Assembly: GCA_021776915.1 (NCBI GenBank)
Contig: JAIQZU010000084.1
Coordinates: 62,001-126,000, forward strand
Reading direction: 5' to 3'
Length of the DNA: 64,000 nucleotides
Source of the DNA: Candidatus Scalindua sp.
GTDB lineage: Bacteria > Planctomycetota > Brocadiia > Brocadiales > Scalinduaceae
Below, piece by piece: positions 54,232 through 61,253 of this stretch. How positions within the stretch are numbered: the stretch's first letter is position 1; the number at the start of each line of letters is the position of its first letter. Below the pieces are notes generated by a model that saw only the letters and a program-made list of their open reading frames with translations, was not told the origin of the DNA and made no database searches. Both the position numbers and the translations under genes were made by a program.

Positions 54232-56547
54232 TTACTGTTTAGATAATGTATTTATATGTAAAGATCTATTCTCTAAGAGAGTTTCTTTGTATATTTCTAA
54301 TATCTTTCTCGCCGTATCTTCCCATGAAAACAATTTAGATCTTTCTAATCCCTTACTACTCAAATGTTGCCTCAATTCATTATTGGTTAATACATTATAC
54401 ATAGCTTCACATAATGAATTAATATCAGTAGGACCCACCATAATTCCAGCCTCGCCAACTACCTCTGGCAGAGAAGAAGTGTTAGATGTGATTACGGGTA
54501 TTCCACATGCCATTGCTTCTAATATTGGCAAACCAAACCCTTCGTAAAGTGATGGATAAACAAATATATCAGCACAATTATATAACATAGGTAAATCATC
54601 ATCCTTAATAATGCCAGGAAATAAAACTTCATTCCTCATATTACTGGATTCTATTTCCTTGAAAATCCGATTATAAAGCCATCCCTTATCACCAACTATA
54701 ACTAATTTATAATCTTTTAGCCCTTTTACCTTTAATTTCTTGAATGCTCTTATTAAACTAATAACATTTTTTCTGGGTTCCAGAGTACCTATATTTAAAA
54801 TCATCTTTAATGGCAGGCTATTTTCCAACCTATATGCTTCTACGTCACCGATAGGACGAAATCTGCGTTCAACACCATAATTAACAATCTTTACTTTACT
54901 ACTTTTAATTCCACAATAATGTAAAATATCCTTTTTTGTTGAATTTGAGGGTACAATAATAACATCAGCCTTACTAATAGATTTTTCAAATATGTATTTC
55001 TTATATATCTGTCTGGATTTATTGAATAAATGTGGAAACCGAATGAATGCTATATCATGCACTGTAATGATAAAAGGATGTCTTCTTTGTAATATTGACG
55101 ACGCATGATCAGTGTAGTGAAACAAATCAAGCCTGTCATCCAGTGAATAGAAAGGCAAGACTATCTGTTCCCATAAAATTCTTAATGTGTTGTTGCGTGT
55201 AACTATCCCAGCCTTTTTGACATGAATTGCCTTGTGATCTATCCCACTCAACCGGTAAATTTCACTAGTTGTGTACAGAAAATAATCACACGTACTACCA
55301 ATCTTTGAAATAGATTTACACAAGTTATTCGTAAATCGTCCCACACCTGTATGTACATCTAAAACCTTTGAAATATTTATACCTACTCGCATTCTTCTAA
55401 CGTTACCAGGAACCAAAGGAACTGGATGCAGTCTTTTTGATCTCTCTAAATAATGTGTTTTGAAGATATCTTCATATATATCGAGTGTCCTCCTTACCGT
55501 ATTCTCCCAGGAAAACAGATTCCTTCTTTTTAATCCTTCTTTTATTAAATTATTTCTTAAGCTCTCATTTGTCAGCACCCTGTAAATAGCATCAGCCAAC
55601 TCTTCTGGACGCTTTGATTCGACTATTACGCCAGCCTTCCCCAGAATTTCACTCACAGAAGGTGTCTTAATTGCTACAACAGCCGTCCCACATGCAATCG
55701 CCTCTATAAGGGGCAAACCAAAGCCTTCATAAAGAGATGGTGAAACAAATACATCTGCCTCACTGTAGAAATGAGGTAAGAACTCATCTGATATTTCACC
55801 TACAATAACTACCCCTTCCAACATATTATTCTTTAGTCCATTCAGAAATGATTGGTCTTTTTGACCAACTATTACCAATTGATGGTCTATTCTCCCCCTC
55901 AGTTGCTTATAAGCCTCAATGAGTAAGCCCACATTCTTATGAGGTTTCTGATTACCTACATACAGGATAAACCTGCCGCTAATACCAAACCTATCTTTAA
56001 TTTCATTAACCCTGTCGCCATTGCTCCTTCTGAATATTTCATCAACTGCATTATAAGTAACAACTATCTTCTTCAGAGGTACATTCAGATACTTAGCTAT
56101 GTCATGCTTTGAATTTTCGGAAACAGTAAGGATTCTACATGCATTCTTTGCAGCTCTTTTAACAATAAAACTATAGTACGCCCTGTGAAAAACAGAAGAT
56201 TCTTCCGGAAATAATACATGAATCATGTCGTGTATTGTCATGACTACTTTGCACTCTCCAATGATAGGGCCAAAAAATGATGGTGAGTGAAATATATCTA
56301 CTTTTTCCTCTTTCAACACTCTGGGAATTGTGATTTGCTCCCTAATACCATACAACCTTGGTTTTGTAAGTCTTAGAGAAAAGTTTTCACGGGAAGATAC
56401 AAAATCATTTAAATAATTATCATTTGAAATCAATACATAATCGTTTTTCTTATCAACATCGGATATGCCCTTTATTAAATTATAAGCATACCTGGATATT
56501 CCGTGCTTAAATGAACCTATCATACGAGTATCAATAGCAATTCTCAT
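54232..56547 (-). CDS. Two fused GT4 glycosyltransferase domains
   Basis: 771 residues, two GT4 enzymes in series. Domain 1 (about 1-365) begins [20 protein letters not shown] and has [17 protein letters not shown]; domain 2 (about 385-771) begins [19 protein letters not shown] and has [17 protein letters not shown]. Both EX7E motifs are intact, so both halves look active. Adds two sugars in sequence. Its start overlaps the GT9 gene end by 4 bases (ATGA). Confidence 0.92.
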
Positions 56548-57932: not shown

Positions 57933-59453
57933 TTACATATACTTTCGCTTGAAAATTATTTGCCTGATTTTCCTGGAAAGATTGGGAGCAATTCTCAAAG
58001 ATAACCTTTTAAGTGAAATAACCGGAAATACAATTGAAAATACAACCGGATATATTTTTAAATAAATGATGTGAACTGGAGCAAGGTATAATTTGTCTAA
58101 TATTCTTTCTATACACTTAGAAAGTTTACCAGGTTTTACATAATAAGCAATTCTGTACAATTTAACAAAGACAGGAAAGTATTTATAGGCAAATTGTATC
58201 TGTTCTTTCGAAATCGTTGGCAACTTCAACACAGAATTACCAAAAAAGGTTGAAACCCCCTTTTTGCTATTATCCAGGAACCCGTTTTCCTTACATATCT
58301 CATAAAGTCTGGTATGTGGGTATGGCTGGAAGATTGAAACATGAGCCTTGTGACACATAACTGTTGCATTTAATTTTACCGATTCCAGTGTATGCTCAAT
58401 CTTTTCAAAAGGAACTCCCACCATAACGTAACTTGTAAAATTTATTCCATATTTCCTGCCCAGTGAGAAAGCTTCTGTTATTTGCTTATTTGACATATGC
58501 CTGTTTAAGACATTCTTTCTTATATCTTCGTTACCACTCTCAATACCCATGGCAAGATATTCACAGCCTGTTTCTTTTAACAGTCTAATAATATCTTCAC
58601 TTAGAACATTTACATGTGAATTACCATGAAACGGCATGCCCACCTCTTCCTTGAACCTTGGCAGGAATTTTCTTAACCAATTCTTATTCAAGCAAAATGT
58701 ATCGTCTAGAAAATTAACATATTCAAGATAAGGATATTCCTCTTTTACAGACTTTATCTCCTGAATGACAGCTTCCGGGTCCCTGAACCTGACATACTTG
58801 TTAGCGTTTGGATATAATTTTCTGTATTGGTGATTACAACAATATGTACACCCATAAGGACAGCCCCTTCCGGCCAGCACTGTCAACATACCAAGTCTTG
58901 CGTCAGACAATTTTTCAAAATCAAATATACTCCTGTCAGGAAATGGCCTGCTTTCAAGATTATCGTTTAAGGGCCTTATGCTATTTCTTATGATATTTCC
59001 ATTATCCTTCACCCATATACTTTCCACATTTCTAAAATCCTTATCATGATCCATCTTATCACACAACTCTACCAGGGCTTCTTCACCTTCACCTATACAC
59101 ACCATATCAATATTTTCGTCATTCAATGTCTCTTCAGGGGCAACAGTTGGGTGTACTCCACCTGCGACAGTATGAATCTTCCCTGCCTCTTTAGTAAGAG
59201 ATGCAAGTTTCTTTACCAACCCAAACTGATGAGAAAAAAGGCTGAAGGCTACCAGATCAGGCTTTTCACACATAATAGATTCTATATATTCCTCTCTTTC
59301 CAGTATCCTTGTTATGTGGATCAAAGAAACCATATGGCCTGCATGTTTCAGCGAGGAAGAAAGATAGCCTACGCCATGCGCAAATACGCCGTCATAATCC
59401 GGCATATATTCTTTAACGTAATTCAAATCCGGTAAAACAAACGTAATTTTCAT
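57933..59453 (-). CDS. B12-binding radical SAM protein
   Basis: 506 residues from ATG 59451-59453 (MKITFVLPDLNYVKEY); the frame extends 42 codons further upstream without conservation. N-terminal cobalamin-binding-like domain with AGGVHPTVAPEETL and GEGEEAL, then the radical SAM motif C198-x3-C202-x2-C205 (GCPYGCTYC), then QPYPHTRLYEICKENGF near the end. Class B type methyltransferases of this architecture methylate unreactive carbon or phosphorus atoms. Next to the PEP mutase fusion, suggesting a phosphonate tailoring role; target is an inference. Confidence 0.88.
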   Translation of the reverse strand: MKITFVLPDLNYVKEYMPDYDGVFAHGVGYLSSSLKHAGHMVSLIHITRILEREEYIESIMCEKPDLVAFSLFSHQFGLVKKLASLTKEAGKIHTVAGGVHPTVAPEETLNDENIDMVCIGEGEEALVELCDKMDHDKDFRNVESIWVKDNGNIIRNSIRPLNDNLESRPFPDRSIFDFEKLSDARLGMLTVLAGRGCPYGCTYCCNHQYRKLYPNANKYVRFRDPEAVIQEIKSVKEEYPYLEYVNFLDDTFCLNKNWLRKFLPRFKEEVGMPFHGNSHVNVLSEDIIRLLKETGCEYLAMGIESGNEDIRKNVLNRHMSNKQITEAFSLGRKYGINFTSYVMVGVPFEKIEHTLESVKLNATVMCHKAHVSIFQPYPHTRLYEICKENGFLDNSKKGVSTFFGNSVLKLPTISKEQIQFAYKYFPVFVKLYRIAYYVKPGKLSKCIERILDKLYLAPVHIIYLKIYPVVFSIVFPVISLKRLSLRIAPNLSRKIRQIIFKRKYM

Positions 59454-59591
59454 AGTCACAATGCAGCCTGTAAAAAATGGTAAGATAAGGCTAATATATT
59501 CAGCGAGTTTCTGTTGGTTCATCCAAATCAGTTTCACATACAAGAAAGATAATACATGTGAGAAAATGCATTTGGACAATTAAAAACAGTT

Positions 59592-61253
59592 TTATTTAAT
59601 AATTGAACATGCCAGTTTATAATCCTCAAAAGAGTGGATTTCAAGCCACCCTGAGTTAGCCTCCATACCATATACTGGAAAATTAGAGTTGATAATTTCT
59701 TGAAGGAGATCAGAAAATAAAGCGTGCTCGAATTTGTCTACACTATAAAAAGGTTTTCCGCTATATTTCTCCAAAGATGTACGATATATATTTTTTACAA
59801 CCTCAACTCCCTTTCTTGAGAGTAATACAATACCGGGAAATTCAGATTGGCATTTGGCAGGATTCAAATCTTGACCAATCTTCTCAATACGCCTCAATTC
59901 ATTACTGTGTAAACTTCTCCTTGCCTTGAGAGTCGTTCCTTCAACAATAACTAATTCCTTTCTTCTATTATCACATGCATGTTCTGAATCGTATGAATTA
60001 TCAATGAGTACAGTGATATCATCTTTACTTTCCATGATCCGGCTGAGGATAACATGATCAAATATTACGTCACCGTAACAAATAATCGTTTTCTCACTAA
60101 TATTATTAAGGGCACACATAATCGAATAAAGCGTACCTGTATTACTATAGTCAGGATTATGAATTAACTTAACCCCATTAACGCCAACCTCCTCTTTCTT
60201 ATAACCAACAACAACATTAATTGAATAAATTTTACATCTATTTAATACCTCCACCTGACGTTGCAGAAGGGGTTTTCCGTTTATATCAAGCATTGAAAAA
60301 GGTATATCTTCTGAAATATTCTTCATTGAATGCTCTTGAAGATGATCACCGGCAACCGGTATAACTGCAGCCACTTTTGCTGAATCAGCCATGGCGTATT
60401 TTAATTCCGACTCTTTCATTTGCAACATCCCCTGCAGTTCAAACACCTCGTCTAAAGTTGCAATCTTATCTTCCACAGCAGCAGTACTTCCAGACTTATA
60501 AACGCTCGAAAACACCTCACTCATTGCCTTGATGCTTGCACGAATACCATGATTTGCATAAATGACCATTGATATTCGCTTTTCCTGCAACTCATCAGCA
60601 GTAACTTTATAATATTTTGTTGGAACCACAACTAAGGGCGCTCTATTATTCCATTTTTCAACAAACTCATAAATCTCGTCAGCAGTCTTGGATTTACTAT
60701 GAATAAGAATGGCGTCTGCCCCTGCGTCAGCATACGCATGTGCACGTTTAAGGGCTTCTTCCATTCCCCATCCGGCTATTAATGCTTCAACTCTCGCTAT
60801 TACAAGGAAATCCGGATCATTTTGAGCATTCTTTGCCGCCAATATTTTTCCTACAAATTCTGCAATTGACGCCAATTCCTGTCTTCCTGGAATAAAACTA
60901 TTAACCTTAGGAAAAAGTTTATCCTCAATACAAACGGCAGCTATCTCTGCTGCTTCATACTTTTTAACCATATGAATTACATTATTTGAGTTTCCATAAC
61001 CGGTATCACAATCCGCTATAACAGGAATATTGACAGCTTCATTCATAGAAGAAGCCGCATTGAAAAAATCAGTCATGGTAAGGATGTTGGCATCAGGCAG
61101 AGCATAACTGGTAGAAATTTCCAGACCGCTTGCCCATACAGCATCAAAACCTGATCTTTCCACCAACTTTGCACCCAAAGCATTATGTGCTCCCATGACA
61201 TGAATCAGTTTATGTGAAGCAAAAAGAGTGCGAATTTTTTTTGATTTAGTCAT
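59592..61253 (-). CDS. pepM: Phosphoenolpyruvate mutase fused to nucleotidyltransferase-like domain
   Basis: 553 residues. Residues 1-290 are PEP mutase: W40-A-S42-G43, ALPD (51-54), DCDTGYGN (D81, D83) and the signature EDKLFPKVNS (110-119), which forms the C-P bond of phosphonopyruvate from PEP. Residues about 294-553 resemble a sugar/choline-phosphate nucleotidyltransferase: VIPVAGDH at the G-x-G-x-R site (no arginine), P318-F319 where P-K is normal, then NPDYSNTGTLYS and CYGDVIFD with the metal aspartate, and GWLEIHSFEDYKLA. The activation lysine loss is notable. Fusions of PepM and cytidylyltransferase make CMP-activated phosphonates. Confidence 0.9.
   Translation of the reverse strand: MTKSKKIRTLFASHKLIHVMGAHNALGAKLVERSGFDAVWASGLEISTSYALPDANILTMTDFFNAASSMNEAVNIPVIADCDTGYGNSNNVIHMVKKYEAAEIAAVCIEDKLFPKVNSFIPGRQELASIAEFVGKILAAKNAQNDPDFLVIARVEALIAGWGMEEALKRAHAYADAGADAILIHSKSKTADEIYEFVEKWNNRAPLVVVPTKYYKVTADELQEKRISMVIYANHGIRASIKAMSEVFSSVYKSGSTAAVEDKIATLDEVFELQGMLQMKESELKYAMADSAKVAAVIPVAGDHLQEHSMKNISEDIPFSMLDINGKPLLQRQVEVLNRCKIYSINVVVGYKKEEVGVNGVKLIHNPDYSNTGTLYSIMCALNNISEKTIICYGDVIFDHVILSRIMESKDDITVLIDNSYDSEHACDNRRKELVIVEGTTLKARRSLHSNELRRIEKIGQDLNPAKCQSEFPGIVLLSRKGVEVVKNIYRTSLEKYSGKPFYSVDKFEHALFSDLLQEIINSNFPVYGMEANSGWLEIHSFEDYKLACSIIK

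Follow-up and report, generated by a model that had tools for sequence, protein, structure and literature searches.

The window (the whole 64,000-nucleotide stretch of DNA analysed here) encodes a 553-residue protein in which a PEP mutase (PepM) is fused to a C-terminal nucleotidyltransferase (NTase) domain. The open reading frame runs on the minus strand, from an ATG at 61253 down to a stop at 59592; a preliminary description of this DNA had placed the fusion correctly at 59592-61253 and named no strand. In the window annotation, the gene lies within a minus-strand run of polysaccharide-type genes, which encode glycosyltransferases, an O-antigen ligase, a flippase homologue, a methyltransferase, and a B12-radical SAM protein. 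When the surroundings were checked for a Pnt tailoring cluster, no decarboxylase, AEP transaminase, or PntC gene was found adjoining the fusion gene. The features are listed below, with the fused domains grouped into classes A (the clade of the query), B, and C.

59592..61253, minus strand: PepM-NTase fusion gene, 553 residues (open reading frame and translation; full-length relatives L009, 91% identical, and L010, 59%)
60393..61253, minus strand: PEP mutase domain, residues 1-287 (TIGR02320 over its cut-off; PF13714; phmmer to 5unc and 1m1b)
60897..60926, minus strand: PepM signature EDKLFPKVNS, residues 110-119 (E, D, K, F, P, K, N, and S invariant in class A)
59595..60380, minus strand: degenerate PntC/LicC-like NTase domain, residues 292-553 (PF12804; AlphaFold2 model with Foldseek; profile search)
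60327..60353, minus strand: AGDHLQEHS, residues 301-309, replacing the G-x-G-x-R loop (Arg in 0/55 fused domains, 49/49 separate NTases)
60297..60302, minus strand: Pro318-Phe319, replacing Pro-Lys (Lys25 of Tde-PntC; Lys in 0/14 of the query clade, 49/49 separate NTases)
60069..60077, minus strand: YGD, residues 393-395, with the metal-binding Asp395 kept (Asp in all sequences of the alignment)
59916..59918, minus strand: Arg446 (Arg in 14/14 class A and 22/25 class B; Glu in 41/49 separate NTases)
59871..59873, minus strand: Gln461, aligned to Lys153 of Tde-PntC (separate NTases, Lys 31 and Arg 16 of 49; class A, Lys 6/14)
59634..59648, minus strand: WLEIH, residues 536-540, with His540 at the Asp of W-x-E-x-D (Asp in 49/49 separate NTases and 0/14 class A, where it is His in 8, Gln in 4, Arg in 1, and Asn in 1)

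Directly downstream of the fusion lies a gene for a B12-binding radical SAM protein (57933-59579, minus strand), for which none of the NCBIfam models listed gave a score over its curated cut-off. The B12-binding match starts only at residue 69, so the annotated TTG start probably lies too far upstream. This gene was not seen adjoining the fusion in L009 or L010 and is therefore not tied to the pathway. In the same run, 54232-56547 (minus strand) encodes in one frame a 771-residue protein with two group-1 glycosyltransferase units in tandem.

The N-terminal half scored 341 bits against the curated equivalog model TIGR02320, whose cut-off is 319.55, and phmmer aligned it over its whole length with the solved Mytilus and bacterial enzymes. 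The complete EDKxFPKxNS signature that had been attributed to this half is present. The intact motif and the family membership suggest that this half would convert PEP to phosphonopyruvate.

The C-terminal domain matched PF12804 with 40.2 bits (cut-off 27), although the match begins only at profile position 18, that is, past the G-x-G-x-R loop. A full-length AlphaFold2 model built from three sequences was not usable (pLDDT 35), whereas a model of the domain reached pLDDT 70.6 and pTM 0.75, with low confidence at residues 303-316 and 421-471. In a Foldseek search with the domain model, Tde-PntC (6pd2) was the best PDB match (E 1.3e-11) and LicC the fifth, so that the NTase plan assigned to this domain in the preliminary description is right.

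Alignments with Tde-PntC put its Arg15 at the Arg of G-x-G-x-R and its Lys25 at the Lys of P-K in the separate NTases. The preliminary description had read the loop as AGDHLQEHS and the P-K as P-F, with YGD retained, and each of these readings was borne out. A merely shifted loop was ruled out: the 17-residue segment from G302 to P318, GDHLQEHSMKNISEDIP, is free of Arg, and the single Lys within it, K311, is not conserved across the clade. The alignment revealed two further changes, His540 at the Asp of E-x-D and Gln461 at the position of Lys153; Glu538 of the W-x-E-x-D motif is kept. A sequencing error or one-off change was likewise ruled out, because relatives share the loss, namely the 91%-identical orthologue (L009, with its counterpart in the same-genus genome G003) and the more distant L010. 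Asn366, Ser377, Asp395, Asp418, Arg446, Trp536, and Glu538 are each conserved in 14/14 class A domains. Asn366 and Ser377 are presumed to form the base pocket of the fold.

Comparison of the window gene with its orthologue (91% identical) gave a dN/dS of 0.114 for each half and of 0.075 for residues 294-420. The domain is thus maintained, since it is under the same strong purifying selection as the PepM half.

The relatives came from the phylum of the query, Planctomycetota, from Omnitrophota (L010), and from Burkholderiaceae and Roseomonas replicons of a plasmid collection; Bacteroidota, Spirochaetota, Actinomycetota, and Bacillota fall outside the sample of fused domains. No fused relative was found in an IMG/VR scan or in a phage collection. 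The 55 fused domains comprise 53 with both halves and two judged to be contig-edge halves; the 49 separate NTases came from the same collection of loci (sampled genomes and clusters). L091 and L132, initially taken for separate Arg-less NTases, were judged from their position and tree placement to be contig-edge halves of fusions and were regrouped.

The peculiarity is not that of a single protein: every PepM-fused domain found lacks the Arg (0/55, in Planctomycetota, Omnitrophota, and Pseudomonadota, vs 49/49 in separate NTases), and one clade among them lacks the Lys as well. In class A (n = 14), which includes the query, the Arg, the Lys, and the E-x-D Asp are all missing, and the loop is about three residues longer. 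Class B (n = 25) also lacks the Arg, with Lys in 24 and Arg in one at the Lys position. Class C (n = 16) lacks the Arg at its position, keeps the Lys, and has an altered E-x-D in most members; most of its domains carry an Arg three positions upstream of the lost one. Position 446 is Glu in 14/14 of the nearest separate enzymes, and the charge swap to Arg is common to classes A and B. In a maximum-likelihood tree with midpoint root, all fused domains formed one clade (96/81) with the Arg-bearing separate enzymes outside; A and B grouped together (100/97), and A grouped with L117 and L132 (100/99). The simplest reading is that there was one fusion, whose domain would have lost the Arg early; the Lys and the Asp would then have disappeared along the branch leading to class A.

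Within one genus, the class of the fusion differs between genomes (G004, G007, G008, and G010 vs G000 and G003), being A in some and C in others, which suggests replacement by gene transfer. In another genome of this genus (G011:C102:844-1044, L025), a class A fusion is represented only by its residues 487-553, at 87% identity, owing to either a truncated gene or a contig break. At L054 (in L133), a PepM of 306 residues nests within class A and has lost the domain outright; a decarboxylase-type gene follows 27 bases after it. In class B (L034-L051, L084-L089) and in the unfused L134, the PepM-like half reads ED(N/A/S)xFPK(R/K)CS instead of EDKxFPKxNS. These class B halves nonetheless sit in clusters with decarboxylase, AEP transaminase, and PntC genes, and a filter for the motif EDKxxxxxNS would drop such putative PEP mutases.

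An intact separate NTase was present in the available flank of 34/53 fused loci (A 5/12, B 20/25, C 9/16); in 7/12 class A loci none was found in the flank, and flanks were often short. The flanking NTases often occur with phosphonopyruvate decarboxylase-like, AEP transaminase-like, and CDP-alcohol transferase genes, which are annotated accordingly in Mycetohabitans and Roseomonas. The query genome has a single PepM, and three intact separate NTases of the PntC/LicC type were seen in it. A cluster on its contig C66 (L066:6435-10048) encodes a split TPP decarboxylase, an AEP transaminase (TIGR03301 over its cut-off), an intact PntC-like NTase, and a CDP-alcohol transferase, and contains no PepM. 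The window PepM may be linked to this cluster; we offer the link only as a hypothesis, because the decarboxylase is ambiguous (below both cut-offs, its halves fit the sulfopyruvate type slightly better than the phosphonopyruvate type) and because matching clusters, decarboxylase pairs included, turned up in genomes of the same genus in which a PepM was looked for and not found. Elsewhere in the query genome, about 26-30 kb past the window end, contig C83 (L058:5660-9654) encodes a radical SAM protein, an Fe-alcohol dehydrogenase (nearest model TIGR03405, 248 bits, below its cut-off), and a 442-residue protein with a kinase-like N-terminal part fused to an intact NTase.

Fusions of PepM with PF12804 are known, and their degeneration is absent from the papers found: in the literature searched, supplements aside, only Rice et al. 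treat such fusions, and the degeneration of the fused domain is not mentioned. In that paper (Rice et al., 2019, PMC6697681), the fusions were inventoried as about a third of PepM (Ppm) enzymes, and their frequency was read as a predominance of nucleotidyl activation. They share the architecture seen here, in which a MobA/LicC-like NTase domain comes after a PEP mutase with EDKxxxxxNS. In the text considered here, the fused domains are treated as activating enzymes and assays concern only enzymes outside PepM, whereas the fused domains analysed here lack the Arg, and the query clade additionally lacks the Lys and one acidic residue. The count in that paper used Pfam gathering scores. All eight class A proteins tested here also pass the PF12804 threshold, as do one class B and one class C protein, so that a profile-based count does not tell them from active enzymes.

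Compared with PntC (Tde1415 PntC-AEPT, 6pd1/6pd2; Ari1348), the query domain has the same fold and keeps the metal Asp and W-x-E, but it lacks the equivalents of Arg15, Lys25, and Lys153, reads E-x-H for E-x-D, and has PepM instead of AEPT as its fusion partner. With LicC, the CTP:phosphocholine cytidylyltransferase (1jyk/1jyl), it shares the fold and overall plan; in LicC, unlike the query domain, the G-x-G-x-R...P-K and E-x-D motifs are complete. In fosfomycin biosynthesis, Fom1 likewise joins PepM to a cytidylyltransferase-type domain (PF01467; PMC6697681). The Fom1 domain belongs to another NTase family, is N-terminal, and is active on 2-hydroxyethylphosphonate, whereas the query domain is PF12804 and C-terminal.

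The C-terminal domain has lost its clamps for the pyrophosphate and alpha-phosphate of CTP, along with one acid of the C-terminal metal motif, so it would not make CMP-phosphonate. The presumed base-pocket residues and the first-metal residue are kept, which would fit binding of a nucleotide or CMP-conjugate without turnover. We consider it reasonably probable that the protein is a PEP mutase with intact motifs and a conserved pseudo-cytidylyltransferase domain, with nucleotidyl activation left to a separate PntC. Judging solely from conservation, the most likely role of the domain would be binding, regulation, or scaffolding for the mutase, and the selection on it is consistent with such a non-catalytic part. 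It might, for instance, sense CTP or the end product CMP-phosphonate. The retention of Asp395 and Glu538 counts against a pure scaffold, which would need neither. The co-occurrence of separate NTases suggests that a PntC with intact G-x-G-x-R...P-K would perform the activation. The preliminary description had proposed either a different nucleotide chemistry or substrate binding without activation. The second part is the one favoured here, given that the whole clade lacks the equivalents of Arg15 and Lys25, needed for cytidylyl transfer, and retains, under purifying selection, the fold, the first metal Asp, and an Asn/Ser of the presumed base pocket. The first part seems less likely; no positive evidence of a replacement for the phosphate-binding residues was found.

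The main rival to the pseudoenzyme reading is a re-wired catalyst, in which the missing charge comes from elsewhere (Arg446, for example, or some residue in the PepM half) or the enzyme acts on a different nucleotide or acceptor. The preserved Asp395, Glu538, and Asn366/Ser377 pocket would suit such an enzyme, as would the strong purifying selection and the near-constant Arg446 of classes A and B. It would, however, have to work without the Arg, the Lys, and the E-x-D Asp, all missing in class A, and with a variable residue at the Lys153 position. In Tde-PntC, R15A, K25A, and K153A each left <10% activity, and the Lys-to-Ala change abolished activity in FrbH and YgbP (PMC6697681), so that a single Ala at any of the three positions is crippling. 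Position 446, moreover, lies within a low-confidence stretch of the AlphaFold2 model. We regard re-wiring as unlikely.

The same Glu-to-Arg change at 446 would also suit an anionic ligand, and the fusion to PepM is constant. Both could be explained if the domain bound an intermediate of the pathway, either phosphonopyruvate or AEP, with no nucleotide involved, and so pulled the unfavourable PepM equilibrium or passed the product on; we know of no precedent for this in the PntC/LicC fold and consider it very improbable. The outright loss of the domain at L054, nested in class A, could instead mark it as a functionless relic heading for loss. Against this, dN/dS equals that of the PepM half, and several positions are conserved in 14/14 class A domains across two phyla, which makes a relic highly unlikely.

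The pseudoenzyme reading might extend beyond the query clade. It is conceivable, though rather doubtful, that the PF12804 domain fused to PEP mutases in general is a pseudo-cytidylyltransferase, perhaps one that tunes PepM by sensing CTP or a CMP-phosphonate allosterically; the Lys kept in classes B and C, and the Arg three positions earlier in C, suggest that some fused domains may be active. If the extension is true, one would have to revise the view that at least a third of PepMs have an activation domain of the PF12804 family of their own. If the fused domains are non-catalytic, pathway predictions in which the fusion makes CMP-phosphonate would be wrong, and C-P bond formation may have a regulator that has gone unnoticed.
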